A stretch of DNA of 24,514 bases from a virus. The notes under the pieces were generated by a model. The model did no database searches. It was not told the origin of the DNA and was given only the letters and a program-made list of their open reading frames with translations. Shown here in pieces: positions 3,786-22,964 of the stretch (the stretch's first letter is position 1; every line of letters begins with the position of its first letter). A program made the translations under genes and the position numbers. The stretch lies in IMG/VR virus record IMGVR_UViG_3300007539_000213, positions 1 through 24,514 of that record. One strand, written 5' to 3'.

Positions 3786-5527
3786 TGAAAAAGAACATTA
3801 AAACTATTTTAGATAATGTTAATGCCTTAATGGATAACAACGCAGAACAACAACTTATGCGTTATCGTATTCGTTCAATTATGGATGGTGGTATCGATGG
3901 TATGAGAGCATTGCTTGGACCAAACATGGATAACATGGATGCAGATACTTTACCTGCACCAAATCTTTTAGTATCAGGATTAGATAGATTAGCACAAAAG
4001 ATTTCAGGAGTACCTGACATACGTGTTGATAGAGTTAATGACAAAGATAGTGAACGTGCTAGAAAACGAGCAGAAAAACTAGAACGTATTGTATCTTCTT
4101 ATGATGATAAGCAAAAACTTAAACAACAATTAGGTCAAGTATCACGATGGCTTCCTGGATATGGTTATATCTCATGGGTTATAAAAACAATTAAAGATGT
4201 TGATGGTAATTATTTTCCTTATGCAGAATTACGTGACCCATACAATACTTATCCTGGACACTTAGGTGCTGACCAACAACCTGATGAGATAGCTTATGTA
4301 CGAAGAATACCTTTGTACAAACTTATACAGATTTATCCTGAACATGCTGTTGCTTTAAAAGCAGACGATAAAACTAAAAAACCTGAACCTGCAGGAGAAA
4401 GTTTTTATTCTATGACACTTGATGACCAACAAGAACAATGGGAAAACGATAATGGTAAAGGTGTTGTAGTTGTAGAGTATTACGACGACAGTGGTATGTA
4501 CATTGTTGTACCACATAAAAAGATATTATTAGATTTTGTTGAGAACCCATTAAAGAGTGGTCCACAGTTTATATTTGCTAAAAGATTTTCTTTTAATGAA
4601 CTTAAAGGACAATATGACCATGTCTTAGGTTTAATGTCACAAATGGCAAAGATAAATATTTTATCTACGATTGCTATGGAAGATGCAGTCTTTACTGAAA
4701 CAAACATATCAGGAGAATTAGAGAGTGGTCAGTATCGTAAAGGCAGACACGCTATTAACTATTTAGCACCTGGTACACAAGTATCTAAACCTGTTAACAA
4801 TTTACCTTATCAATTATTTAATCAAGTTGATAGATTAGAAAGACAGTTGAGATTAGTTGCAGGTTATCCTGTTACTGATGATGCACAATCTCCTAACAGT
4901 TTTGTTACTGGTAGAGGATTAGATGAACTTAATGCTTCAATGTCTTTAATGATAGGAGAGTATAGAAACATACTAGGAGATGCTTTACAAGAACTAGATG
5001 CTAAAAGACTTGAAATGGATGAATTGTTATTTGATAAGTCTAAAGCATTAGTAGGACATAGGAAAGGTTCTGCTTTCTCTGAAACTTATAAACCATCTAT
5101 TGATATTGCTAAGAACTATAGAACAAGACGTGTTTATGGTGTTATGGCAGGATTTGATGAGCCACAAAAAATTGTTACAGGTTTACAGCTTATACAAGCA
5201 AACATTATTGATAAGCAAACTTTACAGGATAACTTGACAGGATTAGATAATATTCCTGCCATTAATGAAAGAATAAGAAAACAAAAAGCAGAAGATTTAT
5301 TATTTGAAACCTTATTAGCTAGAGCAAATCAAGGCGATACACAAGCAACTATGGCTGTTGTAGAAATATATAAACAACCTGATGATATGCAAATGATACT
5401 TAATAAATTCTTTACACCTGAAGAACCACAGCTATCTCCTGAAGAAATGGCAATGATGGGTCAACAGCAGATGCCACAGTTATCACAAGGTGGTTTAGCA
5501 CAAATGGCATTAGGATTACCTGGATAA
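3785..5527 (+). CDS. Portal protein
   Basis: The portal forms the ring at one head vertex that serves as DNA gate, nucleation point for head assembly and docking site for TerL. The call rests on position directly after terL, a length (580 aa) in the usual portal range, and a mixed-helical sequence with segments typical of portals, such as APNLLVSGLDRLAQKISG near the N-terminus, a WLPGYGYISWV strand (about 120-130), YAELRDPYNTYPG and a long helical region around VDRLERQLRLVAGYP. The C-terminus is Gln/Met/Pro-rich. The frame extends upstream to a TTG at 3761 and an ATG at 3776. I chose 3785 because TAATG overlap with the preceding stop is the rule at four other junctions here. No protease is fused. 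Confidence 0.85.
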   Translation: MKKNIKTILDNVNALMDNNAEQQLMRYRIRSIMDGGIDGMRALLGPNMDNMDADTLPAPNLLVSGLDRLAQKISGVPDIRVDRVNDKDSERARKRAEKLERIVSSYDDKQKLKQQLGQVSRWLPGYGYISWVIKTIKDVDGNYFPYAELRDPYNTYPGHLGADQQPDEIAYVRRIPLYKLIQIYPEHAVALKADDKTKKPEPAGESFYSMTLDDQQEQWENDNGKGVVVVEYYDDSGMYIVVPHKKILLDFVENPLKSGPQFIFAKRFSFNELKGQYDHVLGLMSQMAKINILSTIAMEDAVFTETNISGELESGQYRKGRHAINYLAPGTQVSKPVNNLPYQLFNQVDRLERQLRLVAGYPVTDDAQSPNSFVTGRGLDELNASMSLMIGEYRNILGDALQELDAKRLEMDELLFDKSKALVGHRKGSAFSETYKPSIDIAKNYRTRRVYGVMAGFDEPQKIVTGLQLIQANIIDKQTLQDNLTGLDNIPAINERIRKQKAEDLLFETLLARANQGDTQATMAVVEIYKQPDDMQMILNKFFTPEEPQLSPEEMAMMGQQQMPQLSQGGLAQMALGLPG

Positions 5528-5730: not shown

Positions 5731-6133
5731 AGGAGGTTATAGACAACCTGCTAATCCTGCACCAGTAAGTGGACCTGGTGCTTTATCAGCTAGAACTGAT
5801 GGTGGTCCAGGTAGTGCTACACAACCTATTAGAAGAATACCTGGCGTAGATTACGGAGAACAACAAGCATTATCAGAACAACAAGCAGCAGCACCATTAC
5901 CTGCTGAACCTACAGTTCCATCAAGAGGTATGGCTACGCCTAGACCTCCATTAAACAGAGATGTCTTTAGACCAACAGATGTACCTGGCGAAGACCCACG
6001 TACAGCAGGAATTAATCCTGCAGAAGCAGCACCTGACAATACATTGTTAGCTTTAAAAGCTATGTATCAAGTATCAGGATTTAATCCAGTAATTAGTCAA
6101 TTAATACATAACTATGAACAAAGAGGTTTATAA
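5711..6133 (+). CDS. Proline/alanine-rich phage protein with GPGALS/RTDGG motif
   Basis: Encodes 140 aa starting MAKKRTRGGYRQPANP, then PVSGPGALSARTDGG (about 15-30), IPGVDYGEQQALSEQQ, a Pro-rich linker and a C-terminal helix (LLALKAMYQVSGFNPVISQLI). From memory, proteins with a PAPVSGPGALS-RTDGG core and a YGE motif sit just after the portal in many actinobacteriophages; their function is not established, though a minor head or connector role fits the position. In-frame ATGs at 5693 and 5702 are possible starts. 5711 is chosen because the basic MAKKRTRGGY start resembles the family; no ribosome site decides it. It overlaps the previous gene by 20 bases and ends in TAATG into the giant gene. 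Confidence 0.75.
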   Translation: MAKKRTRGGYRQPANPAPVSGPGALSARTDGGPGSATQPIRRIPGVDYGEQQALSEQQAAAPLPAEPTVPSRGMATPRPPLNRDVFRPTDVPGEDPRTAGINPAEAAPDNTLLALKAMYQVSGFNPVISQLIHNYEQRGL

Positions 6134-9100
6134 TGGCTTTTCATGGTTGGTTCAACGATGACGAGTTAGCAAACGAACAAGACAAAAAAGACGCTGCTCA
6201 AAGAGAATTTGAACTTTTAACAAGAATTATTACTTCTGAACAAGCTAAGTCAGCAGTTGAAATGTCAACTGTTTGTCCTAATCTACCTGCTGATGTTATA
6301 GAAGCAGCAGCTATGTCAGGATTAACTGTTTACGACCCTGCGTTTCAAGATATAACAGATATGGTTACAGAAGAACAACAGAAGCAATGGGAACGTGATT
6401 GGAATAAAGTGCAAGACAGTAGTGGTTTTGATGAACCAATTATGGGTATGGCAGAATTACTTGCTAAAAAACCTGGATATGTAGTTGATTTATTACTTGA
6501 AGCAGGTATTGAAGAAGTATCTATGTTGTATAGAGCAGCAGGATATGCAGCAGTTAATGCAATACAAAGTTACAGATTACAAAAAGGTTGGATTAAAGAA
6601 GGTCAGTTACTAAATGGTATTCAAATAAAAGAAGAAGACATAGTTAATTATGACCCTGCAGCAGCATGGAAAAAAGATGGATTTAAAGGATTAGTTAAAG
6701 AATATTCTGAATTGTTTTCTAATGCTAAAGAAGCAGCAGGTGCAACATTATGGACTGAAACATTAGCTACATTACGAGAAGGTAAACCATTAAACATTGA
6801 CCCTTCAAGAAAATTTATATTTCAAGGTTTAAAACCTGAAGATGATGAACGATACAGAATGCTACTCAAAATGGATTATGAGGAAAACGAAGCTAAAAAT
6901 ATCTATTACAAATATGCAGGTGTACCACTTAGAGCAGAAGGATGGAATGACCATGAAAGAACTTCTGTATTTAGACCTAATGAGATTATGTTTAGACCTA
7001 CATCAGGTAAAAGACTTACATTAGGTTTTGACCCTAATAACTATTTACACTTACAACAACAAAGATTAAAAAATAATCCTGATGCTTTTGCACCTATTGA
7101 AGGTAACAAACTAAGTAGATTTTTACAAACAGTTTGGAGAGGTACAACAAATTTAGCTAAATCACAAGTTGATGCAGTTAAATCTTTTGACCCTGGTATA
7201 ACTGAATTAGAAGGAGTACAACCTGCTATACATTTTAGTAATGGTCGTGTTACTGCTTCACAAATAGTTCCTCCAGGAACAGTAGAATTTACAGCATTAT
7301 CAGGTGGTATAGACGCTTACACATCATTAAAGTTAGACCCAGTAGCTAAAGGATTAAAAGGTTTATCTTCTTTACGTCAAGCAACTAGAACTATTCATCC
7401 TGATGTTATACAAGAAGGATTGGGTATTAGTAGGTTTAGAGATACAGTATTCAAACCAAAACTAGCAGATATGATTGAACGACCTGATAGTTATAAATTG
7501 TATGAAGCTACAGCACTTGAACCTAATATTGGTACATTTCAAAAGTTATTTCCACAATTACCATTTGAAAGTCAAGCAGCATTAGCAGGTACAGAAGATG
7601 CGTTACAAGCTAAACAAGTATGGTCAAAGATATGGGGTAGTGGTTATCTTAATGAAACACCTGTTAAAGGTGCAGAAATTAGAAATGCAGTATCACGTGC
7701 TATAGGAAATAGGTCATTATCTTTAAGACAAAGTGAAAGTGTTGTACAAAGAGGATTGGGACAACTTATTAGACCATTAGGTAATCCTAATGCAGCATAT
7801 AGACCACTCCGTTCTAAATTAGCTACTGGACTTAGAGATGAGTTATTACTTCCTATAAGAAACAAAATGAGATTTATGACAGCACAACCATTACTATCTC
7901 CATCTGAAATAGCTAATCCATTAGATGAGTTACTTAGTTTTGGTGCAACTATTAAGTCAGCTATGCCTACTTATATGCAAAGAATGCTTAGTTTAACACC
8001 TGATGATGGTTTATCAGTTACTAACTTTGATGAAGCAGCTATGGCAATTAGAAATCATTATGACAGTATGGGTGCAGAAGTAGAACGTGCAGAACCATTT
8101 TTACAAAGACTATTAGATTTAGAACCTGGAGATTTAGGTGGAGTTACAAGATTAGCTATAGATATTGGTAACGATACACAAGCATTTTTAAAAGGTACAG
8201 GTGTAGCAGATGATATTGCGTTTGAAGCATCAAGAATATTTGAAACAAGTTCACAGATACGTGCGTATGGTAAAGATAGTTTATTCCGTGACTTACCGTT
8301 TGTAGGTATGCGTGAAGTAGAAGAAATACCTTATACATTACTTAATGGAGAAAAAGTATTAATTACAGTACCTTCTGCTTCAGGTTTAGTAGAGATGGCT
8401 TCTTTAAAAGCACCATTACCACAATGGTCAGGTATTACAAAAGCATTATCTAAAGTAACTTATTTAATGGATGGTCAAGAAGGAAGACAAGGCATACGTG
8501 GTGTTATGGATTATTACAAAGGTAATATCAAAGCACTTAAAGATATGGGATTTGGAGATTATGTTATATCAGGTACTTATAAAGGTATATTACCTAAAGG
8601 CATGTCACAAGGTCCAGTATCTTTGTTAGCACAGTTTTATATGGGTGGAATATTCAAACCAATAGTTCTTTTACGTGCTGCATGGTTTACTAGAGTATTT
8701 TTAGAAGAACAAGCACGTATGGCTGTATCTAACCTAGATAGCATGTTTATTCATCCATTCAGATATATTACATGGATTAACTCTCATAACACAGAAGTAC
8801 GTAATGCTATTAAAAACGGAGATGTTAAAGGATTAGAAAAGTTTAGATTACGTTTTACAAGAGATAGTGACCTTAAAGATGTATTAGAGTGGCAAGGTGC
8901 TATGAATGGAAATTTAGCTACTGAAGTAAATACTGGACGTAAATCAGTTGCAGGTTGGCGTGGTGTCAATAGTAAGTTTGCTACAAAAGATTGGATAGAT
9001 GTAAAACCTGGACAAGCAGGACATACTGGTAGCTTACAACATGAACTTATACAAATATACGATGACCCTGTAGGTAGATATGTAGCTGCTAATGGATTAA

Positions 9101-11397
9101 CTACTTCTACTAGAGATTGGTTTAAGTATTCTGATGAAGGTAAAAAGATTAGAGATAGATTAGTACGTAATGGTGGAGATAGATTTGAAGACTTACTTAC
9201 TGATGAAAAGGCAATGGATGCTTACTTAGATTATTGGGAAGCACGTATTCGTTCTAAAGCAGGTGGATTTGATAGTTATACTTACACTCCTGGCGACGCA
9301 TTTAGTTATAAGTTTGTAGAAGATACATCAGATAAAAACCTTAGATTGTTTGCAGGTACTGGTAAAGCAGTACTAGGTAAGGGAGAAATTAGTGCTGCAA
9401 AGATTTCAAGAGCAGCATTAGCTAAAAATAATAAAACATTAGGTGCTTACCTTGAAGGCATGGGAGATTTAAGAAATAGAATTGGTGTTGTAAAAGCACC
9501 TAGAGAAGTAACTGTAGATTTAACATCAGGACAAAAAGCTATTGGTATGTTAGACGCAGTTACTGATATTGCGTTTGAATATCTTATGACTAAACCTAAT
9601 ACATATCTTTCACGTTCAGTTGCATGGAAACAAAATAATTGGGCTAAGATGGAAGACCTTATGCCAAGATTAAATCAATCAGGAAGACTTAGAGCATTGG
9701 AAGAAGCTAGAAATGCAAATATTCCTAAACCAATGTATGCAAGATTACAAGAAGCATCTAAGAAAACTATTGATGGTGTTGATATGGGATATGAAGAAGC
9801 AGAAGCAATAGCTAAAGCATACGCATTACATGCTACTAAATTACTTCTTTATGATGCAGCTAAAAGACATAATATATCTGCTATAACTGCAAATATATTT
9901 CCATTCCCTGAAGTTTATATAGAGTTAGCTACAACATGGGGCAAGTTAATTGCAAACAATCCTGCTTCTATAGCTAGAGGTAATATGGTTGTTAGAGGTG
10001 CAGAAAGTTCAGGAGATGATGGTTTCTTTTTTCCTGACCCAAATGGTAGTGGAGAAGAAATGTTTGCATATCCAGGTAAATCTTTCTTGACACAATCAGT
10101 ATTTGGTCCAGGTTCTAAAGTAGGAATACAACCTGCAGGTTTCGTATCAGGTATCAACATGTTATCTAGTAACATATTTCCAGGTGTTGCACCACTTTAT
10201 GGTTATGCAGCTAATAAGTTATTACCTAAAAACGGTATAGGAGATGAAGCTAGAAAGTTATTGTTTGGAGATTTTCCTGCACCAACTACATTAGTACCTA
10301 AACCTGCATGGGCTAATAAGCTATATACAGCGTTTAGTGATAGTCCTAAAGCACAAGAAGCTAGAGCAGCTACAACTAATGCTATTTACAATTATGCTGC
10401 TGCTACAGGTTATAGAGAATATTTTAGACGAGATGATGGAAGTATTGACGAAGTAGCAATGATGGAATGGGCTAACGATAGTGCTGCATTTATATATGCA
10501 ATTAGAGGTTTTTCACAATTCGTAGCACCTACAGGTTTCTCTCCTAGATTTTATGTAGAAGATAAAGATGGTCAATGGTGGGCTACACAAGTATTAGCAC
10601 AAGAGTTTTACAAAATTAGAGAAGCTACAGGTGGCGATACTATTGCAGCATATAATGAGTTTTTTGGTAAGTACGGTATTGAACATCCTTATTTAACTGC
10701 ATCTACAACTGTATCTCCTGAAGGTCGTAGATTTTACACAGAAGAAGGTAAAGTATGGGAAAGAGAAAACAGTGCTTTAATGAAAGAGTTAAATATTACT
10801 GGATGGTATTTACAACCTGAAAGTCCATTTGATGATAGAGAATGGCAATTTGTTTATGAAGATATACAAAAAGGATATTTAGAAGGATTAACACCTGAAC
10901 AGAATGTACGTAAAGTAAATGACACATTAGGTTGGATTAGATATACAAACTTTACACAACAATTAGAAAGAGCAGGAGTTAAAGGTAGTCAACTTAAAAT
11001 TGCTAAAGCCTTGTATAGACAACATCTTAGAGAAGAACTACCTGGTTATTTAGAAAATTATGGAATAGCTGAAGCACCTACTGCTAAAGAAAAACTATTT
11101 CAAGTAGAAACTAAATGGGCTAAAACTCCTGGAGTAGCAGATAGTGAAGTAGGAAAATCAGTATTAGACTATTTAGATTACTGGAAGCAAATGAAAGAAT
11201 TGTCCGTAGAATTAGGTTATAGTGAAGAATGGTGGTACACATCAACAGATGATAGGGCTGTTATAATGAGGTCAGCAATAATTGGTATAGGTAAAAGATA
11301 TATTCAAGAAACACCTGATTTTGAATATGTTTTTAGAGATGTATTTCAAGGCGTACTAAGGGACGATATACTTGAAGATATAGGAGTTGGAGAATAA
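6133..11397 (+). CDS. Giant virion protein (1754 aa), probable internal/ejected or tail-associated
   Basis: No enzyme motif is evident. The sequence is mostly helical and Ala/Leu/Glu-rich. Around 837-870 a segment with FKPIVLLRAAWFTRVFLEEQ and RMAVSNLD resembles, from memory, a conserved stretch in very long actinobacteriophage virion proteins; it is hydrophobic enough to contact a membrane. Further landmarks are NIFPFPEVYIELATTW (about 1254-1269), a GFFFPDPNGSGEEMF segment (about 1297), several Gly/Pro-rich hydrophobic segments, and a helical C-terminal third. The size, lack of fibre-like repeats and position between portal and capsid genes favour a protein packaged in the head or tail and delivered with the DNA, but a tape-measure-like role is not excluded. 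The ribosome site AGAGG precedes the start, and the gene is coupled to both neighbours by TAATG. Confidence 0.75.
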   Translation: MAFHGWFNDDELANEQDKKDAAQREFELLTRIITSEQAKSAVEMSTVCPNLPADVIEAAAMSGLTVYDPAFQDITDMVTEEQQKQWERDWNKVQDSSGFDEPIMGMAELLAKKPGYVVDLLLEAGIEEVSMLYRAAGYAAVNAIQSYRLQKGWIKEGQLLNGIQIKEEDIVNYDPAAAWKKDGFKGLVKEYSELFSNAKEAAGATLWTETLATLREGKPLNIDPSRKFIFQGLKPEDDERYRMLLKMDYEENEAKNIYYKYAGVPLRAEGWNDHERTSVFRPNEIMFRPTSGKRLTLGFDPNNYLHLQQQRLKNNPDAFAPIEGNKLSRFLQTVWRGTTNLAKSQVDAVKSFDPGITELEGVQPAIHFSNGRVTASQIVPPGTVEFTALSGGIDAYTSLKLDPVAKGLKGLSSLRQATRTIHPDVIQEGLGISRFRDTVFKPKLADMIERPDSYKLYEATALEPNIGTFQKLFPQLPFESQAALAGTEDALQAKQVWSKIWGSGYLNETPVKGAEIRNAVSRAIGNRSLSLRQSESVVQRGLGQLIRPLGNPNAAYRPLRSKLATGLRDELLLPIRNKMRFMTAQPLLSPSEIANPLDELLSFGATIKSAMPTYMQRMLSLTPDDGLSVTNFDEAAMAIRNHYDSMGAEVERAEPFLQRLLDLEPGDLGGVTRLAIDIGNDTQAFLKGTGVADDIAFEASRIFETSSQIRAYGKDSLFRDLPFVGMREVEEIPYTLLNGEKVLITVPSASGLVEMASLKAPLPQWSGITKALSKVTYLMDGQEGRQGIRGVMDYYKGNIKALKDMGFGDYVISGTYKGILPKGMSQGPVSLLAQFYMGGIFKPIVLLRAAWFTRVFLEEQARMAVSNLDSMFIHPFRYITWINSHNTEVRNAIKNGDVKGLEKFRLRFTRDSDLKDVLEWQGAMNGNLATEVNTGRKSVAGWRGVNSKFATKDWIDVKPGQAGHTGSLQHELIQIYDDPVGRYVAANGLTTSTRDWFKYSDEGKKIRDRLVRNGGDRFEDLLTDEKAMDAYLDYWEARIRSKAGGFDSYTYTPGDAFSYKFVEDTSDKNLRLFAGTGKAVLGKGEISAAKISRAALAKNNKTLGAYLEGMGDLRNRIGVVKAPREVTVDLTSGQKAIGMLDAVTDIAFEYLMTKPNTYLSRSVAWKQNNWAKMEDLMPRLNQSGRLRALEEARNANIPKPMYARLQEASKKTIDGVDMGYEEAEAIAKAYALHATKLLLYDAAKRHNISAITANIFPFPEVYIELATTWGKLIANNPASIARGNMVVRGAESSGDDGFFFPDPNGSGEEMFAYPGKSFLTQSVFGPGSKVGIQPAGFVSGINMLSSNIFPGVAPLYGYAANKLLPKNGIGDEARKLLFGDFPAPTTLVPKPAWANKLYTAFSDSPKAQEARAATTNAIYNYAAATGYREYFRRDDGSIDEVAMMEWANDSAAFIYAIRGFSQFVAPTGFSPRFYVEDKDGQWWATQVLAQEFYKIREATGGDTIAAYNEFFGKYGIEHPYLTASTTVSPEGRRFYTEEGKVWERENSALMKELNITGWYLQPESPFDDREWQFVYEDIQKGYLEGLTPEQNVRKVNDTLGWIRYTNFTQQLERAGVKGSQLKIAKALYRQHLREELPGYLENYGIAEAPTAKEKLFQVETKWAKTPGVADSEVGKSVLDYLDYWKQMKELSVELGYSEEWWYTSTDDRAVIMRSAIIGIGKRYIQETPDFEYVFRDVFQGVLRDDILEDIGVGE

Positions 11398-12353: not shown

Positions 12354-12354
12354 C

Positions 12355-15300
12355 ATGTTAGTTAAACCTGAAAGAAATCCTCAACCAAAACCTAGTCCGT
12401 TATTAAATCCTGACTTACTTAGTACTTTACCTTTTGCTACTCGTATGTATGTTATTGGTAATTTTGTTAGAGATATTGTTCAATATATTGGTACACAATT
12501 AAATGATGAATACATTGGTCAAAATAAAAGTTTAGTAAATCCAAATCCTAGACAAAGTAATAAACAGGTTAAAGTTGTTACTAAGCCAACAGAACCTGCA
12601 ACAACAGCACCTAATTTAACTGGTTCAAAAATTAATATAAAATCTCAAAACTTAGTAGGTAGCATATCAAAAAATTATGGAAATGAGAATGCGTCAATGT
12701 TAGTAGAAAATATGCACCATTGGGTACAAAACAATAGCAATCCTATAAATAGTTTTTTTAATTTTGTTGGTACAGATACTTATGCAACTGATGCAGAAAA
12801 CTTAAATAGTTTGAATAATAAAGTATTTACTCAAAGTACATTTCAAAAAAGGGTAGCAGAGATATTAGAAATATCTTCAAATACATTTGGTATTGACCTT
12901 ACAGAAATATGGAAACAAGATGTACAATTAATTGAAAAAGCTATTAAAACTTATCAAGATTTTGTTTTAAGTGAAAATGGAGTAAATTTTAATCCATCAT
13001 TATTTAGTACATATTTTAAAGAAATTAAAGAATATAAAGCAGAAGATATAAGAAAAATAGTTAATTCATTAAATACATTTGAAAAAAATTCATACAAAGT
13101 TATTACAGAAGGAATTGAAGCATTAGAAAATTTAATGAAACCTATTTTAAATTTGAATAAAGGTCACGCTATGAATGACCAAAGTTGGTTGTTATCTAAC
13201 ACAGAAACAGGGAGAGAAGTAGACCTACCTGTTGGAACTATACATGATGTAGGAGAAGTAGTGGACAGAAATAATCCTATGCTTCTTAAAAATATTAAAG
13301 TAAAAAATAATCGACCTACAGAAATGTTTACAAATTTATTAAGAGATAATTTAAGCAGTGAAGTTATACAAAATTTAATTGGTAATAATAAAGGAAAGAT
13401 ACTTACTTCAGAAGAAACATTATTACCATCGTATGAACAATTTGTAAATATATTTGAAGACTTAGGATATAACGTTAAAGAACTATTATCTGAAACAAAT
13501 AATTTAAAATTAAATCAAGCTAAAGAAGATGTTATTGCAAATATAAAGCAATCTTTACAAACAGATAATGTACAAAATAAAACATTACTAGAAGGTGTTG
13601 AAGAATTATTTGAAGCGTTAGTACTTAAAGATAACAAAGGCGATGTTGATTTAACAGATAGATTTAATAAAATACGAAATGCTTACAGCAAAATATTTGG
13701 TTCTTTATATAAAGGTTCAGACAGTATTCCAAACGTTGGTTATCAGTTATTTAACAATGTAGAAAGATTACAACATCAAGGATATTTATTAGGTACTAAA
13801 GAATTATTAGCTAATGCTACTCCCAAAGAAAGAGCATTAATATTTTTAAATGACATAATTATGGATGGTTCTGTAAATAAAAACTTTAAAAATGTAGAAG
13901 CAATATTAAAAAGTATTATTGCTGAAGACCCATTAGACATACATCACGTAAGTGATGAAGCATTAAACTTTGGAATATTTGATGGTTCTAATTACAATGA
14001 CCCTGTAGCTACTAAGTCTTGGATTAATGACGCATTCTTAAACAAAGCACACAATAACAAAGCATTAATAGAACATATAGTTCCTAATTATGGAAGTAGT
14101 TATTTACCAACTAAATCAAAATATTCTAAGTTTGCAGAGATGTTAAAAGAAGTTCCTGAAGAATTAAAAACTATTATGCGTAGTTATGCAGATAATTTAG
14201 GTATCGACTATATGATAGATAGTAAAAATTTTAACGAAATTAAAAATGCTTTAATTGAATTAGACCCTTCGGCTTTTCCTGCTTACAATAAATATTACGA
14301 AGAATTACCTTTTAAAAATGAAACACTTAAAAGAAAGTTAATAAACTTTAAACCTTCTAATTGGCAAGACTTAACCAATATACATGTTAATAGAGAAGTA
14401 CAAAGATTTATAAACTCGCATCCTAATTTAGATAAGAAAGTATTTACAGATAAAATAATAAGAAAGGGTATTACTTCTGCAGGAACTATAGATGAAAACA
14501 GTGAGTTGTTTAATTTACTTACTGGAATGCGTGAACAATTCCCTGATTTCATTTACATGCTAGAAGCAAAGATTGCAGAGATTGCAGAAAATGCACAAGA
14601 TGTTACTAAATACACGATGAATGCTTTTAACAATATGGATGCAAAACATATAACTTCATTAATGAATAAAAAATATAATGTTGCTAGTCATGGACAAATG
14701 TTAGTAGCAGCACAACAAGTATTAAAAGAAAAAGGTAAGTGGTTTCAATTAACAATGAACCCATCTATTACAGACCAATATGCCACTTATACTGCAAGAC
14801 AACCAGTGTTTTCTCCTTTTAAATATTCAGATTATTTATACGAAGGAACTGGTGGAATAATGGCATCAGGCTATCCTGATATGTTAGTAGGAAACCTAGA
14901 TAAACCTTCAGCTAGTTCTTATAACGTAGATGCAGGTAGCAGCAAATTTGCTGACATAGCATATTCAAGTCAGTTACTACCTGAAAATAGAAAATATACT
15001 TTAAATGGTTTAATAGATGAACTAATGTTAAATAAAGTAGATGTGGTTGGTAACATCGTATATCCAGTTATAGATGGCACAGATTATTCAACTATTCAAA
15101 GAAATCAGATTATTGATTTGTTACAAAAAGATTTAATTAAAGTATTATCAGACCCTGATTTATCTAAAGAGTTTGTAAAGCTAACAGTCAGTTCTTATGG
15201 AGATAAAATGCCATTGATAGTTGACCAGTTCTTAGATGCTAACGAAGGTAATGAATTTTTAAAAGACCAACTTGTTTTACCTGGAGAAGCTAGAAAAATA

Positions 15301-18300
15301 TCTTCTCAACAATCTTACAAAGTAACTGGTGTCAAAGATTTAAACACAATCATAGAACTACCTGATGGAACAGTTATATCTAATAAATTAGATGGAATGA
15401 CTGTAACATATAACTCTCCTTTTAGTATTTCTAAAAACAGTGTGGGTACGCAAAATTTTAATAATCATATATTTGCTAGTGCTGCTAAGGAAATAGGAGA
15501 AAGTGGTTATGCAGAAATAGCTGAAGCGTTATTAAAACTACAAGGTGCTGAAGTAGATAACTATATATATTTTGATAAAGAAGTATTGAATGAATTAAAA
15601 AAGATATTAATAACACCACTAGATAGATTTAATGGTGGAGAAGGTGCAGTTATTACATCAACTACAGGATTAGAAAGTCCTGGTATATATACTCAAAGCA
15701 CTTTAAAAAATGCTGCATTTGATACTTTACAGTTAGCTGTATTAGATGGTGCAGGAACTAGAGGAGAAATAACTATTGTACAAGATGGCATGAAAGTATT
15801 AGATATGTCTAAGTGGGCAGTAGTAACTAGAAACAATGCAGCAAAAAACTCTATAACAATAATTCCTGGTCAAGGAGAAAAAGTTATGTCAGGTAGTTTG
15901 CAGCACTTTCAATCTCCTATTGGTCCACCAACAATAAGTACTAAAGCACCTTCACAGTTAGCAGTTATGTTAACTGCAGATGATTTACAGGAATTAGAAG
16001 ACACAGGTTTCTTTAAGAATATGTTTTATAACTGGTTAGATGGAAGAAAAACAGTTACGCCAGTAGATGGTAAATATATTATAGATAATAATTTTGCACC
16101 TAATTCACTTCCTGCAGCTAAAGGACCTACTAATATTGATGTGAACAAAATGCCTATCTCATTAAGTTCTCATGCAATAAATGAATATTTAAAAACAAAA
16201 ACACCTAATGACCCTACTGAAATAATTGGTACGAAAAACTTTATTATTCAAACTATGCAAAAGTCTGCTCAAAACTTACAAAATTTTATTGATGGTAAAA
16301 CCGAATATGGTAACAAAGCAGTTGCATACTTTAAAGTTGATGAACTTTTAAAAATGGTGGAAGATAATCGTTTACAACTATTAAATGACGGTGGTCCAAC
16401 AGGTATGGACAATGTATATGATATTGCAAAAAGTATGGGTAAAGAAGGTTATAAAGTATTTCAAGAAAAACCAAGTAAAGAAATGTGGTCAAAGATTGCT
16501 AGAGGTCAAGTAGGTAAAGTTTCTGATGCTGATAGAGCAAGAGCAGCAGTGCCTATTGTTAGATTTAATCCTAATAATAATGCGATGATATTAATAGAAG
16601 GTAACCACAGAGTACAAGCTATGAATATTTGGGGAATTGATTATATGCCAGTCATATTTGAATTAGACCCTTACACAATTAAAACTGATATAACAGATGC
16701 TGCAGAAGCATTAAATGGTTTAGGAACAAATAATGATGTTACTGCAAGAATATCAGCAGGTATGAAATTTGAAAGTGATTTTAGAACAGAAAGATACAAT
16801 CCTTATGGTATATGGAAAAAATTAGCTAGGTATATAATCGACCCTGAAATAAACAAGTCGATGTTAAATCCTGTGACATCTGTAACTGATTATACATTAC
16901 ACCCTAAGATAGGACAGTACTTATATCATGCACACAAATATGATAATGCTTTTCAAGTAGCTCAAAATAAAAAAGTATTTGAAAGTCATAATGATACACG
17001 ATTAAGTTATTTACAAAATTTTGTATTTAAAATGAAACACAGAGTAGATGATTTTGCTTCTGCTGTAGATAACATCCAAGACATGGAAGATGCTTTACAA
17101 GGAATGGCTGCTTGGATTAATAGATATGGATTACAAAAAGATAAAGAAAAGTTTAAATTACTTTTAAAATACCATCCAAAAGGAGAAGACTTTGCAGCAA
17201 TGTTAAACTCAATATCATCAGAAGGAAGATTTGATATTGATATATTTGAAACTGCAGCAGCAAGATTAAAGTTAGATAAATCTACATACGAAAATTTATT
17301 TAATGAACATGTAGATTTAGCCAGTTTAAAAACTACAACAAAAGGTGGACATGAATTTAATGCTAAAGATAGTTTTGCTATACCAGTTCAAACACAAGAT
17401 TTTCAATATAATACTGATGGTGGTTTAAAAGTTGGACAGTTTATAGAAGACCAACATCATTTGTTTGAAAACTCTCCTAACTTAGCTAAAAACTTTATAG
17501 AAAATAATTTAGACATCTTAGGTCCTGGCAATATAAAATCTATTAATCAAGGTGTAGATTACATTACAGTTAAACCTACACAGTTAGAAGTTGCAGGAGT
17601 TTCTGCACAACGTACGGTACATAGTTCAAACTCTGATGATATATTACAAGTAATAGTAGATGCAGGAAAAATGACACCTGAAGATGCTGTTCAATATAAA
17701 ACAGTAGAAACTAAATCATGGACAACTAAACTATTTGAAAATCTAAGTAAGTTTGAAAAAGAAAGATTGCAGTATTTATTTAAAGGTCAATATAGATATG
17801 CAACACACGCATTAACTAAAGCAGTACAACCTACAGTATCTGCAATAAAAGATGACGTTTTGTGGAACACTGTTAAAGGATTACAGTGGAATGTATATAG
17901 GAACTCTCCTAAATATGCTAGGGATGTAGGAAGACTTAAAACTTTTGGACAAGTTGCAGATACTTTAACAATACTTCCTGAAACATTAACTTTATTTGCT
18001 ACTACACAAAAGTTTTATGATGACCCTGATTTTGGTGCAGCTACTGGACTAGGTAGGTATGGTATTGGAGGCAAAGAATTAATGCAAGAATTACTACCTG
18101 GAACACAAAACAAATCACAAGGTGGGCAAAAGTTTCAAAATGATGGTCCAGTTTCTGCATTACTTAAAGCAGGTATTAATGGATTGTCTTGGATAGCACG
18201 TAATACTTATTATAGAGATTTGGAAGAAGACCCTACAAAGTACGGAGTTATGGTACAACCTGAAGACTATGACCCTGAACTACACGGAAAGAATTTAAGA

Positions 18301-18558
18301 CAATTAATTTTTGGTTTTGACCCTAGTTTAAAAGGATTTGTTGATGGACCAGGAGGAACACCGTGGCTAAAGCATGAACAAAAACAACCACATGCACAAG
18401 GATTGTTTTATTTATTAGCTAAAGGTTTATCAGGTGGTACAACAAGATATATAGAAGATGGTCAATATAATCCTAAAGCTAATGTACAAAAGATTGATAA
18501 AGAGTTGTACGAAAATATAGGAAAATTTGTTAGTATGGAAGAAGAAAATGGCAACTGA
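12355..18558 (+). CDS. Giant virion protein (2067 aa) with ParB/Srx-like segment; polyvalent-protein candidate
   Basis: This is the largest gene in the window. The N-terminus is Pro-rich, followed by about 800 residues of Asn/Lys-rich helical sequence. Residues about 1325-1430 look like a ParB/sulfiredoxin-fold domain: FKVDELLKM, then GGPTGMDN, then RARAAVPIVRF and EGNHR (1415-1419) followed by VQAMNIWGIDYMPVIF. The EGxHR-A...G...(I/M)PV pattern is the hallmark. About 1108-1154 (SPGIYTQST ... KVLDMSKW) faintly resembles the G.YT...A...VLD pattern of some ADP-ribosyltransferase-like phage domains; I would not rely on it. Such domains occur in phage polyvalent proteins injected with DNA, so an ejected multidomain protein is the best guess. 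Codon use matches the neighbours. The 3' end overlaps the next gene by 11 bases. Confidence 0.75.
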   Translation: MLVKPERNPQPKPSPLLNPDLLSTLPFATRMYVIGNFVRDIVQYIGTQLNDEYIGQNKSLVNPNPRQSNKQVKVVTKPTEPATTAPNLTGSKINIKSQNLVGSISKNYGNENASMLVENMHHWVQNNSNPINSFFNFVGTDTYATDAENLNSLNNKVFTQSTFQKRVAEILEISSNTFGIDLTEIWKQDVQLIEKAIKTYQDFVLSENGVNFNPSLFSTYFKEIKEYKAEDIRKIVNSLNTFEKNSYKVITEGIEALENLMKPILNLNKGHAMNDQSWLLSNTETGREVDLPVGTIHDVGEVVDRNNPMLLKNIKVKNNRPTEMFTNLLRDNLSSEVIQNLIGNNKGKILTSEETLLPSYEQFVNIFEDLGYNVKELLSETNNLKLNQAKEDVIANIKQSLQTDNVQNKTLLEGVEELFEALVLKDNKGDVDLTDRFNKIRNAYSKIFGSLYKGSDSIPNVGYQLFNNVERLQHQGYLLGTKELLANATPKERALIFLNDIIMDGSVNKNFKNVEAILKSIIAEDPLDIHHVSDEALNFGIFDGSNYNDPVATKSWINDAFLNKAHNNKALIEHIVPNYGSSYLPTKSKYSKFAEMLKEVPEELKTIMRSYADNLGIDYMIDSKNFNEIKNALIELDPSAFPAYNKYYEELPFKNETLKRKLINFKPSNWQDLTNIHVNREVQRFINSHPNLDKKVFTDKIIRKGITSAGTIDENSELFNLLTGMREQFPDFIYMLEAKIAEIAENAQDVTKYTMNAFNNMDAKHITSLMNKKYNVASHGQMLVAAQQVLKEKGKWFQLTMNPSITDQYATYTARQPVFSPFKYSDYLYEGTGGIMASGYPDMLVGNLDKPSASSYNVDAGSSKFADIAYSSQLLPENRKYTLNGLIDELMLNKVDVVGNIVYPVIDGTDYSTIQRNQIIDLLQKDLIKVLSDPDLSKEFVKLTVSSYGDKMPLIVDQFLDANEGNEFLKDQLVLPGEARKISSQQSYKVTGVKDLNTIIELPDGTVISNKLDGMTVTYNSPFSISKNSVGTQNFNNHIFASAAKEIGESGYAEIAEALLKLQGAEVDNYIYFDKEVLNELKKILITPLDRFNGGEGAVITSTTGLESPGIYTQSTLKNAAFDTLQLAVLDGAGTRGEITIVQDGMKVLDMSKWAVVTRNNAAKNSITIIPGQGEKVMSGSLQHFQSPIGPPTISTKAPSQLAVMLTADDLQELEDTGFFKNMFYNWLDGRKTVTPVDGKYIIDNNFAPNSLPAAKGPTNIDVNKMPISLSSHAINEYLKTKTPNDPTEIIGTKNFIIQTMQKSAQNLQNFIDGKTEYGNKAVAYFKVDELLKMVEDNRLQLLNDGGPTGMDNVYDIAKSMGKEGYKVFQEKPSKEMWSKIARGQVGKVSDADRARAAVPIVRFNPNNNAMILIEGNHRVQAMNIWGIDYMPVIFELDPYTIKTDITDAAEALNGLGTNNDVTARISAGMKFESDFRTERYNPYGIWKKLARYIIDPEINKSMLNPVTSVTDYTLHPKIGQYLYHAHKYDNAFQVAQNKKVFESHNDTRLSYLQNFVFKMKHRVDDFASAVDNIQDMEDALQGMAAWINRYGLQKDKEKFKLLLKYHPKGEDFAAMLNSISSEGRFDIDIFETAAARLKLDKSTYENLFNEHVDLASLKTTTKGGHEFNAKDSFAIPVQTQDFQYNTDGGLKVGQFIEDQHHLFENSPNLAKNFIENNLDILGPGNIKSINQGVDYITVKPTQLEVAGVSAQRTVHSSNSDDILQVIVDAGKMTPEDAVQYKTVETKSWTTKLFENLSKFEKERLQYLFKGQYRYATHALTKAVQPTVSAIKDDVLWNTVKGLQWNVYRNSPKYARDVGRLKTFGQVADTLTILPETLTLFATTQKFYDDPDFGAATGLGRYGIGGKELMQELLPGTQNKSQGGQKFQNDGPVSALLKAGINGLSWIARNTYYRDLEEDPTKYGVMVQPEDYDPELHGKNLRQLIFGFDPSLKGFVDGPGGTPWLKHEQKQPHAQGLFYLLAKGLSGGTTRYIEDGQYNPKANVQKIDKELYENIGKFVSMEEENGN

Positions 18559-19774
18559 AACTAATAATGAATTATCTTATGTTCCTAATGGTGGAAGAAT
18601 AATAGCAATTAAAGACGCTATATATAATCCTGCTACAGGAATGTTAGAAGATGCTACAGGTAGTACGCAATACTATCTTGTTTATACTATGCCTGGAAGT
18701 GATACAGATATGGGTTGGGCTGTTACTGCAGAAACATTAGATGATAATGGACAACCAAGTGTTTACTTTTCAGGTACAGATAGAAAGCTAACTATATCAG
18801 AAACATACAATTCAAGGTCAGAATTTTTTACAGCTACAGATGGTAATTGGGCTGAATGGGGAACTACTGAAGAACTAGGAGATTTTGAAGAAAGTCATCC
18901 ATTTGAAAAATGGAAAAGAGATATAGATAAAGCAGCAGAAATACAACCTTGGTTAAAAGACCCTGAAGTATTACAAGTATATTTCAATGCTTACGCAGAA
19001 GGTAGAACACCTGAAACATGGGAGTTAGCTGCTACAGACTGGTATCAAACACACAGTAAGTCAGAGAGAAGTTGGCTATCTTTATTTAATTCAGACCCTA
19101 AAACTGCTAAACAATTAAAAGAAGACCAAAGAAGTTTACTTAAATCATTTGGTGTAAATTACAATTTATCAGAAGATGTAACTAATTGGTTAGCAGATAA
19201 ACTAACTACTGGACAATGGACAGAACAAAAATTACGTAGTCAGTTAACAGCACTTACTGACCCATTTGCAGGAATAAAAGTAGATACAGGTTTATCAAAT
19301 TACATGAAGTCACAAAACTTTGCTACTACTACTTACATTAAAAAGTACGAAGACGAAGTTAAAGATATGATATACAATGGTTTAGGTCCTGCATTTGCTA
19401 AAGGATTTACTTCAGATGATGTTGGTAAATGGGCTGCAGAATTTAGAAATGACCCTGATAATGCAAGAGCAAGATTAAATGAATACATGGATTATCAATT
19501 AAAAGTTGTATTTGGAGATAAATACCCACCAGGATTTACATATAAAGAAATAGCACAGCCATGGAAGAATTACACTTATGGTATCTTAGGTGGTTATATG
19601 GATGAACGTGACCCTGCTTGGATAGAAATATTACAAAAGAATGATAGTGTTGAAGCTAGTAAGATAGCTAAGAATTATGGTTTAGAAAAAGGATTTAAAA
19701 AAGTATTTAACGATTTTGAAGGTTCTTTAGTTACAGGTATGGGACTGCAAAAGATTAGAACAACGGTAGGATAG
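18548..19774 (+). CDS. Virion structural protein, helical-repeat type (408 aa)
   Basis: The N-terminal 110 residues are beta-rich, with Gly/Asp turns and aromatic strands (YYLVYTMPGSDTDMGW). After ESHPFEKWKRDIDKAAEIQPWL the protein becomes helical. A segment with LKSFGVNYNLSEDVTNWLADKL followed by TGQWTEQKL has the pattern A/S-x-G-x-x-L-S-(6-10)-W-(4)-L that recurs in virion proteins of actinobacteriophages, by my recollection. The open frame runs back to a TTG at 18527, but the ATG at 18548 is preceded by GGAAGAAG within seven bases and gives the natural MATETNNE start; it overlaps the 2067-aa gene by 11 bases. The stop is one base from the next start, so it is coupled to the 438-aa protein. 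Function unknown; tail or internal head protein are both possible. Confidence 0.7.
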   Translation: MATETNNELSYVPNGGRIIAIKDAIYNPATGMLEDATGSTQYYLVYTMPGSDTDMGWAVTAETLDDNGQPSVYFSGTDRKLTISETYNSRSEFFTATDGNWAEWGTTEELGDFEESHPFEKWKRDIDKAAEIQPWLKDPEVLQVYFNAYAEGRTPETWELAATDWYQTHSKSERSWLSLFNSDPKTAKQLKEDQRSLLKSFGVNYNLSEDVTNWLADKLTTGQWTEQKLRSQLTALTDPFAGIKVDTGLSNYMKSQNFATTTYIKKYEDEVKDMIYNGLGPAFAKGFTSDDVGKWAAEFRNDPDNARARLNEYMDYQLKVVFGDKYPPGFTYKEIAQPWKNYTYGILGGYMDERDPAWIEILQKNDSVEASKIAKNYGLEKGFKKVFNDFEGSLVTGMGLQKIRTTVG

Positions 19775-19775
19775 T

Positions 19776-21092
19776 ATGACTTGGTGGCAATATTTAGGAT
19801 ATGCAAGTGTAGATGAAGCTAACAAAGATATAGCTAATGGCTCATTATCAGCTTCTGAAATACAAAGAGCTAAAGATGAAGTATATCAATCAGATGCTGA
19901 AACTAAAAAAGTTGTTCCTAAAACTCCTAAAAAACCTGCCACTCCTAATGCTGATTATTGGAAACAATATGCTGAATATCAAAAAGCTATATATGAAAGT
20001 ACACAGGAAGTTACTGAAGTTATTACTGAAACTGATGAAACTGATGAAACTGATGAAACTTTATATATAGTTATAGGAACTCCTCCTAACTATACTATTG
20101 CTGCAGTTAATCCTGGAGATGCAAATTACGCTAGTGGTATGTCACAAGGTGCAGCACAAGCTACTGCAGATAAACTAAACGCAGATTATGTACCACCAAG
20201 TAGCAATGATGAAACTGAAACAAATGAACCAAGTACTGACCCAAACTTTTTTGATGTAGATGCTAGATACAATGCAGAATATATAGCACCTGAATTAAAT
20301 TATCAGAATGTATTTTCTGAAATACAAACAAGATACCCTTATTTTCCACAAGCAGTACTAGAAGTATATGCAAAAAATTGGGTTGAAAGTGGAGATGAAT
20401 TAGTAGCTTTATCAAAGACTGAACAATCTGCAGAATTTAAAAAAGCATTTCCTGGAATACGTAGAGATGATGGTTCAATGAGATACTCTGTTGGAGAATA
20501 CTTAGGCGTTAAAGAAGATATGCGAGTACAAGTTGCAGAGTATGGTCTTAATCCTGAAATATTTGAAACTCAATTTAATAAATTAATTGAAGGAGATGTA
20601 TCTCCTGCTGAACTTGCAAGAAGATTACAAGTAGTTCAAGCTGAAATTGGAGAGAACATACCTGCAGTACAACAAGCATGGGCTGCAGAATTTGGAGTAC
20701 CACTATCAGCAGAAGCAATATTAGCTGCTGTTGTTAGTCCTGAAATAGAAGAAGGATTATTACAAGGTACTATATCTGCTGCACAAATACAGGGAGAAGC
20801 AGTAGCTGCAGGATTTGCTACATCATTTGCTAGGTCACGTGCATTAGCTAGAGCAGGATTAACACAGAAACAAGCAGCACAAACATACCAATTTGCTAGA
20901 ACAGCTAGAAGTATTGCAGCAAGAACAGGTAGAGAGTTTGCATTATCTGATATAGAAGAAGCAGCTATTGGAGATACTATGGCTGCAAAGAGAGTACAAA
21001 GTGCTTTACAACAAGTTGAAAGTCAATCATCTACAACTCTAGGTGCAGCACGTACACAATTAGGTGCAGTAACTGGCTTGACAGAAGCATAA
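19776..21092 (+). CDS. Virion protein, FPGIRR-DDG family (438 aa) with TDE repeat linker
   Basis: The N-terminal 30 residues (WWQYLGYASVDEANKDI) form a short helical module. A Lys/Pro-rich and then Thr/Glu/Asp-rich linker follows, containing a TDETDETDET repeat from a 9-bp DNA repeat at 20031-20060. The C-terminal 270 residues are a folded helical domain: ELNYQNVFSEI, FPGIRRDDGSMRYSVGEYL, EYGLNPEIFETQFNKLIEGDVSPAELARRL, and a final LGAVTGLTEA. From memory this order (FPGxRR-DG, EYL..K, L.EGDVS..E.., and a C-terminal GAVTGL) is shared by virion proteins in many actinobacteriophages, usually just ahead of scaffold and capsid genes. The molecular role is unproven. One base separates it from the preceding gene, and GGTAGGA precedes the start. 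Confidence 0.75.
   Translation: MTWWQYLGYASVDEANKDIANGSLSASEIQRAKDEVYQSDAETKKVVPKTPKKPATPNADYWKQYAEYQKAIYESTQEVTEVITETDETDETDETLYIVIGTPPNYTIAAVNPGDANYASGMSQGAAQATADKLNADYVPPSSNDETETNEPSTDPNFFDVDARYNAEYIAPELNYQNVFSEIQTRYPYFPQAVLEVYAKNWVESGDELVALSKTEQSAEFKKAFPGIRRDDGSMRYSVGEYLGVKEDMRVQVAEYGLNPEIFETQFNKLIEGDVSPAELARRLQVVQAEIGENIPAVQQAWAAEFGVPLSAEAILAAVVSPEIEEGLLQGTISAAQIQGEAVAAGFATSFARSRALARAGLTQKQAAQTYQFARTARSIAARTGREFALSDIEEAAIGDTMAAKRVQSALQQVESQSSTTLGAARTQLGAVTGLTEA
20031..20060 (+). repeat. Tandem 9-bp repeat (ACTGATGAA, about 3.3 copies)
   Basis: In-frame copies of ACTGATGAA encode TDE repeats in the disordered linker of the 438-aa protein. The unit length is a multiple of three, so slippage would change linker length without breaking the frame. 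Confidence 0.9.
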
Positions 21093-21127
21093 GAAGTAGT
21101 ATTATTAAATAGGATTTCTTTATTCAT
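21023..21127 (-). CDS. Possible antisense micro-ORF (34 aa) with perfect Shine-Dalgarno
   Basis: A leftward ATG at 21127 is preceded, six bases away, by AGAAAGGAGG (complement of 21134-21143), the strongest possible ribosome site and better than that of any structural gene here. It reads MNKEILFNNTTSYASVKPVT and then 14 more residues. The last 23 codons lie antisense to the end of the 438-aa gene, so much of the peptide could be a shadow of that gene. The ribosome site lies in intergenic DNA and is not explained by the shadow. No family or promoter is recognised. Alternatively, the plus-strand sequence is what matters, as a copy of the 16S rRNA tail. Confidence 0.3.
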   Translation of the reverse strand: MNKEILFNNTTSYASVKPVTAPNCVRAAPRVVDD

Positions 21128-21411
21128 AGATGTCCTCCTTTCTGTCCCCTTACTTCTAAAGTTGTGAGGGGTATTCCTTGACACCACTATATATAGTGGT
21201 ATTCTTATAGTAAGTCGTTGCGTGGTCCGACTAAAGACCTGCATCTAGCACAAGCTACGGTGTGTGCTATGTATTTCAATTCCGTATGTAATTGACATTA
21301 CAAGAAGGAAATAGACTTTGTAATGTTGTGTTTTGATTTCTATTCCCACCCCACATTATTCCGACGTGATGTGTGTATTGGTGTCAAAGTCGAGTTAGAA
21401 GGTAATATAAA
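21093..21411. other. 319-bp structured intergenic region before scaffold and capsid
   Basis: The only long gap inside the structural genes. It holds, in order, an anti-Shine-Dalgarno-like CCTCCTTTCT (21134-21143), a stem CCCCTTAC/GTGAGGGG (around 21145-21172, one G-T pair), a TTGACA with an 18-bp palindrome (21178-21200), TAGCACA/TGTGCTA (21246-21252/21263-21269), and ACATTACAA/TTGTAATGT (21295-21303/21318-21326). No tRNA or known riboswitch is recognised. It most likely contains a promoter and a structured 5' leader of about 200 nt for the scaffold-capsid genes. Confidence 0.6.
21178..21205 (+). promoter_or_regulatory. Promoter-like site with perfect operator-like palindrome
   Basis: A consensus TTGACA -35 box (21178-21183) is followed after 16 bases by TATTCT (21200-21205), four of six to the -10 consensus. 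The spacer is almost exactly the perfect palindrome ACCACTATA/TATAGTGGT (21183-21200). A repressor or activator bound there would block or reshape the promoter, which is a classical arrangement. It would give the scaffold and capsid genes their own control. Confidence 0.45.
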
Positions 21412-21861
21412 ATGGAAGAATTAGAAAATAATATAGACGAAGTACAAACTGAAGATACTGATGGTTCAGGTCCTAAAGGTTTGCGTGATGAGAATAAGCG
21501 TCTAAAGGAAGAACTTAAAGAGTATAAGACTGCTGCTTTACAAAGTACAGTTAATTCTTTAAACCTACATCCTGCAGTTGCTAAAGCAGTTACTAAACTT
21601 TATGATGGTAAACCTGACGTTGATGCTATATCTGCTTTTGTTAAACAAGAATTTGGAGATGATGTTGTTATGAGCAACACTGCACCAGTTCAACAAAATA
21701 ACTTTACAGATGCGTCACAACGTGTAGATAAGTTATCTACTTCTGCTGTATCTGATACTCCACAAAGCCGTGAACAGGCATTGAATGATATTATCAAAAA
21801 TGGAACATTAAGACAGTCCTTAACAGCTAAGTTAGCTGCTATGGACGTAGATAAAATATAA
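21412..21861 (+). CDS. Capsid assembly scaffolding protein
   Basis: Scaffolding proteins guide capsid subunits into a procapsid and then leave. The 149-aa protein has the expected make-up: an acidic start, a charged helical coiled-coil segment (GLRDENKRLKEELKEYK, about 23-40), a short globular middle (LNLHPAVAKAVTKLYDGKPD), a Gln/Asn/Ser/Thr-rich linker and a C-terminal helix (LTAKLAAMDVDKI) that would bind the coat protein. It lies directly before the major capsid gene, 14 bases away. GAAGG lies upstream of the start. No protease motif is seen. The length is at the short end for scaffolds. The identification rests on context plus composition, which together are fairly strong. Confidence 0.8.
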   Translation: MEELENNIDEVQTEDTDGSGPKGLRDENKRLKEELKEYKTAALQSTVNSLNLHPAVAKAVTKLYDGKPDVDAISAFVKQEFGDDVVMSNTAPVQQNNFTDASQRVDKLSTSAVSDTPQSREQALNDIIKNGTLRQSLTAKLAAMDVDKI

Positions 21862-21875
21862 GGAGATAAATAAAA

Positions 21876-22964
21876 ATGGCAGCAATTTCGCTTACCAACC
21901 AAACTATTTACTCACAAAATATCAACAATTTCCAAGGCGAGTTGTTCAGAGTTGGTGGACAAAGAACACCTATGGTATCTGCTCTTGGTGGACTAAGTGG
22001 AGGTGGAAAGGTTATCCAATCTACTTTCTTTCAGTTTCAAACTGCAGACAGTGCTGAAATTTCAAGTGCTGCTACAGTTGGTGCTGAAGGTGGTCAACCA
22101 ACAGAATACCTTGGTAGAGATAGAGTAGCTTATACACAGGTTACTCAAATCTTCCATAAAGGTGTAAAAATGTCCTACACAGCTATGGCAACATACAACC
22201 AACAAAACCCATTTGACCTTAGTGCTAACATCATTAATTCTTCTGATGGGGATGGAACAGTTACTGCTGCAGATAAACTTGCTTTATTTGGTGGCAGTCC
22301 TATTGTTGATGAATTTGCAGAGCAAATGGAATTAGCATTACTTAAAATTGCAAGAGAAGTTGAGTACTTCTTTTGGAATGGAACTTTCAGCGATGGTGCA
22401 AACGTAACCCCTGGTACTGGATTAAGAGCATTCAGAGGTTTCCATGCACACCAAGCATTAACAGGTGGCAACATCTATTATGCTGACACTGTTGGAAATG
22501 GTTCAGGAACAGACCAAAAACTACACTGGGATGCAGTGGCAGGTGCAATGAAAAAATTGTACGACGCACAAGCACCTATGCAGAACTTAGTTCTTGTAGT
22601 TAACCCTGAACAATTATTAGACCTTAACAAGGAACTAATCAACGCAACAGTTGGTACAACTAACTATGCAATTCTCCCAAGAGAGAGAAACGTTGCAGGT
22701 GTTGACATTGACACTGTTATCACACCATTTGGAAACATTGGATTAGTTGTTGAAGAAACAAATCTATTAGGTGCTAACAAAGCAGCTATTGTAGATATGG
22801 CTTTCATCAAACCAGTGTTCACAAACATTCCTGGTAAAGGAACAGTGTTCGTACGTGACATAGACCAAGATGACTATGCACGTGTAGCTAAAGCTATTTA
22901 CATGGAAATGGGATTTGACTTCGGTCCTCCACAATACCATTGTTTAATTAGCGACGTAGCTTAA
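21876..22964 (+). CDS. Major capsid protein (HK97 fold, SU10-like)
   Basis: The shell subunit, 362 aa. The N-terminal region (NQTIYSQNINNFQGELFRVG, then TPMVSALGGLSGGGKVIQS) and the YTQVTQIFHKGVKMSYTAMAT stretch are typical of SU10-type capsid proteins. An E-loop-like segment with TEYLGRDRV, a long spine helix around EFAEQMELALLKIAREVEYFFWNG, and a P-domain/A-domain succession (LVLVVNPEQLLDLNKEL; FGNIGLVVEETNLLG; DMAFIKPVF) follow in the right order. It ends with an aromatic YHCLISDVA tail. A strong AAGGAG ribosome site lies ten bases upstream, suiting very high expression. A hairpin terminator follows at once. No fused delta domain is visible; the separate scaffold upstream fits this. Confidence 0.88.
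   Translation: MAAISLTNQTIYSQNINNFQGELFRVGGQRTPMVSALGGLSGGGKVIQSTFFQFQTADSAEISSAATVGAEGGQPTEYLGRDRVAYTQVTQIFHKGVKMSYTAMATYNQQNPFDLSANIINSSDGDGTVTAADKLALFGGSPIVDEFAEQMELALLKIAREVEYFFWNGTFSDGANVTPGTGLRAFRGFHAHQALTGGNIYYADTVGNGSGTDQKLHWDAVAGAMKKLYDAQAPMQNLVLVVNPEQLLDLNKELINATVGTTNYAILPRERNVAGVDIDTVITPFGNIGLVVEETNLLGANKAAIVDMAFIKPVFTNIPGKGTVFVRDIDQDDYARVAKAIYMEMGFDFGPPQYHCLISDVA

Follow-up and report, generated by a model that had tools for sequence, protein, structure and literature searches.

Gene organization around giant 2

The DNA analysed here, which we call the window, is a linear IMG/VR record of 24,514 bases that comes from an uncultured phage; all its features mentioned below are on the plus strand. 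The gene order is terminase, putative portal, two small genes, a giant gene (giant 1), a 318-aa gene and a second giant gene (giant 2), followed downstream by genes of 415 aa and 438 aa, a putative scaffold, the major capsid gene and two further genes. The terminase large subunit (phrog_38, E 1e-63) and the putative portal, which is assigned by position only and has no PHROG match, occupy 1884..5527. The 415-aa and 438-aa genes, the putative scaffold and the major capsid gene (18527..22964; capsid matching phrog_1328, E 1e-30) have the same order in relatives. With giant 1 (1754 aa; 6133..11397) as the query, tblastn finds matches at 32 of 64 loci. This protein is conserved throughout most of the group, at 25-35% identity, and has no match in Pfam or NCBIfam. 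Giant 2, an ORF of 2067 aa (12355..18558), adjoins virion structural genes, lying between the terminase and putative portal on one side and the major capsid on the other.

Homologues of giant 2, which came from contigs whose giant 1 is 77-100% identical to that of the window, were found only in L055, L057, L058 and L061 (with the start in L060), at 31-43% identity. Since homologues are this divergent although most genes flanking giant 2 in these same four contigs are 70-90% identical to those of the window, giant 2 is fast-evolving. Below, "four homologues" means the giant 2 of the window together with three others in this identity range. Direct searches with giant 2 of Pfam, PHROGs, NCBIfam, PADLOC and PDB gave no match, and neither did direct searches of phage records, viral contigs and genomes; two weak Pfam matches, to NAD_synthase (E 0.034) and Sigma54 (E 0.12), were judged to be due to chance. 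What can be recognized in giant 2 is a single domain, which explains about 120 of its 2067 residues.

A ParB/sulfiredoxin fold around a conserved EGNHR motif

A first-pass annotation of positions 15600-16660 had suggested, from short strings in the translation, a ParB/sulfiredoxin (Srx)-like segment and, upstream of it, one resembling ADP-ribosyltransferases (ART). The quoted strings are all in giant 2, at or just inside that interval: SPGIYTQST (aa 1108-1116; 15676-15702), KVLDMSKW (aa 1147-1154; 15793-15816), GGPTGMDN (aa 1346-1353; 16390-16413), RARAAVPIVRF (aa 1394-1404; 16534-16566), EGNHR (aa 1415-1419; 16597-16611) and, directly after the latter, VQAMNIWGIDYMPVIF (aa 1420-1435; 16612-16659). 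EGNHR holds the P motif (Box II), with GxxR being G1416..R1419. It is invariant in the four homologues, whose alignment extends the invariant string to EGNHRVQA, and no other 40-residue stretch of giant 2 is as conserved as the one in which it lies (aa 1401-1440), where 57% of the columns are invariant among the four, as against a protein mean of 20.5%. The window has a single match to the back-translated pattern [DE]GNHR..A....G...[IVM]PV, and 100 shuffles have none.

Scanning viral contigs with a degenerate DNA version of this pattern yielded 107 distinct domains. Because these other domains had been picked by the motif, the flanks outside EGNHR had to be tested. With HMMER, the giant 2 domain scored 41.7 bits, while 20 versions with shuffled flanks and an intact motif reached at most 27.3. 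When the four-sequence giant 2 family was compared by hhalign with 40 other EGNHR domains, the probability was 99.2% (E 1.9e-19); masking the motif with X left 83.5% (E 8e-6), with the register kept over strand 1 and helix 1, and the motif-masked score of 38.8 compares with a maximum of 18.6 in 20 column-shuffled versions. Control giants that have no EGNHR motif gave 0.5% or less. The giant 2 domain and the other EGNHR domains are therefore similar in sequence outside the motif as well, as the masked comparison indicates.

The joint profile matches the solved ParB structure 6t1f (E 3.6e-6), Noc, Spo0J, SbnI, KorB and sulfiredoxin, and 36 of the 50 members of the joint alignment match Pfam ParB_N. 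An AlphaFold2 model of aa 1308-1450 built on this 50-row alignment (pLDDT 74.8, pTM 0.71) has the order strand-helix-strand-strand-helix-strand expected for the ParB/Srx superfamily. In a Foldseek search of PDB its best 48 matches all belong to this superfamily, including ParB, Noc, KorB, PadC, sulfiredoxin, Osa, SbnI and free serine kinase, with E-values from 0.013 upwards, probabilities mostly above 0.8 and TM of about 0.4. We regard the model as supporting, non-independent evidence, because its alignment includes relatives found by the motif. Modelling a longer segment (aa 940-1560) from four sequences gave a pLDDT of 31 and no usable structure. Structure prediction and profile-profile comparison, which the annotation had named as the check, both recover the fold at aa ~1318-1440; that part of its guess was borne out, and this segment (16306..16674), judging from profile matches and modelling, almost certainly adopts the ParB/Srx fold.

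An expanded base-recognition loop

In the AlphaFold2 model, strand 1 (around VAYFKVD, aa 1321-1327; 16315..16335), which is followed by the LLKM helix start, corresponds in the alignment to the strand VGFV.T..L that other phage domains have. Next comes E1336-D-N-R1339 (16360..16371), invariant in the four homologues and aligned with the E[YF]DR of many members; in 46 other members the two positions hold E in 19 and R in 21, with 17 gapped. E1415, like E1336, is invariant in the four homologues. The C-motif (Box I) helix (aa 1351-1364; 16405..16446; helix 44-57 of the model) leads into a C-motif loop that the alignment shows to be expanded to 34 residues (aa 1366-1399; 16450..16551). It is followed by strands 2 and 3 (aa 1401-1405 and 1410-1415; 16555..16599), and strand 4 (YMPVIFEL, aa 1430-1437; 16642..16665) lies beyond EGNHR.

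In the four giant 2 homologues, 34, 26, 26 and 35 residues separate strand 2 from the C-motif helix, as opposed to a median of 4 (range 4-14) in the 46 other members. In ParB proteins, this loop and its helix contact the nucleotide base (PMC12704722). The expansion of the base-recognition loop is thus lineage-specific, and the GxxR phosphate-binding motif is intact: when the HMM is aligned to 6t1f, EGNHR falls on the GERR box of ParB, and R1419 is invariant in the four giant 2 homologues and in 46 of 46 other members, the latter having been selected by the motif.

Relation to known families

Proteins of the ParB-CTPase fold (PF02195; ParB, Noc, KorB, PadC) have in common with the giant 2 domain the fold, the order of strands and helices, a GxxR phosphate motif and a helix-loop base site. 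They differ from it in having GERR where it has EGNHR, and a base loop of about 4-6 residues rather than the 26-35 of the giant 2 family; unlike them, it sits inside a 2067-aa phage protein. A scan with PF02195 (ParB_N) did not detect the giant 2 domain, and no ParB Box III, HTH, dimerisation domain or ParA motif was recognized in giant 2. Sulfiredoxin and free serine kinase/SbnI share the superfamily fold with it. The catalytic Cys of sulfiredoxin lies within GCHR; giant 2 and its homologues carry GNHR instead, and since Asn takes the place of this Cys, no sulfinic acid reductase activity is expected. Canonical ParB and Noc outscore SbnI as profile matches.

The DdrB-like ParB domains of polyvalent proteins (PMC5512222) belong to the same superfamily and likewise occur in giant proteins whose genes adjoin virion genes. 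Membership of that family (DdrB-ParB, PF18763), however, was rejected, as its profile matched neither the window nor any of 25 related records. The giant 2 domain is closer to canonical ParB_N than to the DdrB-type ParB family.

The proposed ADP-ribosyltransferase segment

The second suggestion of the first-pass annotation fared worse. The segment that contains SPGIYTQST and KVLDMSKW (aa 1100-1180; 15652..15894) is shared and conserved among the four homologues, but no fold could be assigned to it; what speaks for an ADP-ribosyltransferase there is a faint visual likeness alone. Pfam and PDB scans of aa 960-1260 of the four homologues gave no ART match, the ART-PolyVal profile (PF18760) has no match in the window, and hhalign against an ART profile, itself only two sequences deep, gave a probability of 0.1%. 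Moreover, catalytic His-Tyr-Asp (or R-S-E) residues mark this enzyme family, and Tyr 1112 is replaced in all three homologues, where the counterparts of SPGIYTQST are, for example, SPTVATKNT and TPAADTKST. We therefore rejected an ADP-ribosyltransferase at aa 1100-1180, a reading that we consider extremely improbable.

EGNHR domains in other phage giants

Among the 107 distinct EGNHR domains that the viral contigs yielded, 57 belong to ORFs at least 900 aa long. The closest to giant 2 are the giants of L069, L115 and L162, and also L131 and L166, which have the same motif, spacing and flanking pattern (hhalign probabilities of 99.2% and 96%). Some of 22 EGNHR giants scanned carry LPD38, LPD23, MPTase-PolyVal, ART-PolyVal, ArdC-N, GNAT or KptA. 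Since EGNHR domains co-occur in these giants with domains of polyvalent proteins, they are found in a polyvalent-protein setting (PMC5512222). By this analogy, and with giant 2 encoded in a structural operon, the polyvalent setting that had been proposed for it is supported, although not by way of the polyvalent ParB family itself. As for the further proposal of a multi-effector protein, polyvalent proteins (PMC5512222) combine two or more distinct effector domains in one polypeptide. In giant 2 the ParB/Srx domain is recognizable, whereas a second effector domain was found neither by scans of Pfam and other libraries nor by comparison with the EGNHR giants, which share no domain with giant 2 besides ParB/Srx.

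The giant of L069 is a 3057-aa ORF (L069:3-9173) that, unlike giant 2, has GNAT domains and contains the EGNHR domain twice; among the scored domains from outside the clade of the window domain, its second copy is the nearest to the latter. A stretch of this ORF looks ART-like by eye (TLYRGTGVDEES ... FEEAEVVLL).

An apparent exchange slot

In extended records of related phages (L195-L201), terminase, portal, giant 1 and a second giant are followed by the 415-aa gene, the 438-aa gene, scaffold and capsid. By BLAST, six of the seven have a giant 1 homologue (about 25-28% identity) upstream of the slot that giant 2 occupies in the window (11398-18558), and the seventh has there an ORF of giant 1 size with no BLAST match. 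The second giants (1226-2579 aa) fall into at least five groups with no detectable similarity to each other, and hhalign of giant 2 against same-slot giants of other phages, using shallow profiles, found no homology. Several phages (e.g. L004 and L024) have only genes of 300-420 aa in the slot. The place between giant 1 and the 415-aa gene is thus an apparent exchange slot.

Some of the same-slot giants have features of their own. One (L044:164-5761) contains a GNAT acetyltransferase at aa ~288-348, above the Pfam cut-off (E 1e-6). Those of L049 (1-6951) and L020 have a sub-threshold cpYpsA/SLOG-like segment (INSGQMGVEEAAL, E 0.07), and that of L045 (1107-6725) has a sub-threshold GNAT (E 0.04) and, by eye only, an ART-looking stretch (LVIYRAMT ... 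SYASS).

Possible function of the giant 2 domain

Taken together, giant 2, whose gene lies between those for the portal and the capsid, probably carries a ParB/Srx nucleotide-binding module. Its gene position suggests, with somewhat less assurance, that the protein is packaged and delivered from the virion into the host. The same position is the ground for supposing, with the first-pass annotation, that it would be injected ahead of phage gene expression. It may then enter the cell together with the DNA, where the domain would bind an NTP, be it CTP, ATP or GTP. Binding or slow hydrolysis of this NTP could switch another part of giant 2; alternatively, it could drive metal-dependent nicking or phosphotransfer in early takeover of the host. 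Proteins of the ParB-CTPase fold bind CTP, ATP or GTP via GxxR, with a specificity that cannot be predicted from sequence, and those proteins of this fold that were tested no longer bound NTP once their GxxR arginine was replaced (PMC12704722). We would place an NTP-gated switch or sensor ahead of a sequence-nonspecific nuclease, and the latter ahead of a free-amino-acid kinase.

A nuclease would be a ParB-like, metal-dependent DNase or nickase that hits host or rival DNA on entry regardless of sequence, along the lines of the DdrB-type proposal, in which polyvalent ParB domains are NTP-regulated DNases (PMC5512222). Several ParB/Srx proteins are reported to act as nucleases (PMC5512222), and the AlphaFold2 model and Foldseek matches indicate the same fold. 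Nevertheless, the giant 2 domain is not a DdrB-ParB, no nuclease partner domain was recognized in giant 2, and the same review prefers NTP sensing for phage versions, so that we consider such an activity unlikely. A small-molecule phosphotransferase akin to free serine kinase or SbnI, with the acidic residue of EGNHR and E1336 as catalytic residues, would agree with the presence of SbnI and SerK among the profile and fold matches and with the invariance of E1336 (a putative counterpart of the SerK catalytic residue) and E1415; given that canonical ParB and Noc outscore SbnI, we think it very unlikely.

One may also see in the domain a structural relic that has lost its catalytic activity, or a module for protein-protein contacts, with giant 2 being an ejection protein or a tape-measure-like one. 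Giant 2 is encoded in a structural operon, and the greater part of it lacks any enzymatic signature, as such a reading would have it. However, EGNHR is the conservation peak of an otherwise fast-diverging protein, which is not how a decaying site behaves, and we regard this as quite improbable. Returning to the NTP-gated switch, a more speculative extension is that each lineage uses the slot between giant 1 and the capsid genes to deliver a different giant takeover protein, which here would be an NTP-sensing ParB/Srx switch with a rebuilt base loop, gating the remainder of giant 2 as it enters; we offer this tentatively, as a possibility that is more likely to fail than to hold.

In giant 2, the ParB/Srx fold takes an unusual, long-looped form. 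For its domain-fusion analysis, a 2025 survey of the ParB-CTPase fold relied on PF02195 (PMC12704722). Being undetected by PF02195 and altered in its base-contacting loop, the giant 2 lineage provides a natural test of the role of that loop. The slot comparison, in turn, provides a defined set of lineage-specific giants for testing the virion delivery of host-directed domains.

Host of the phage

The closest annotated relatives of the major capsid protein (21876-22964) are 24-30% identical to it and are mostly from phages of Mycobacterium, Propionibacterium, Bifidobacterium and Eggerthella. As this protein is nearest to those of actinobacteriophages, its sequence hints at an actinobacterial host.
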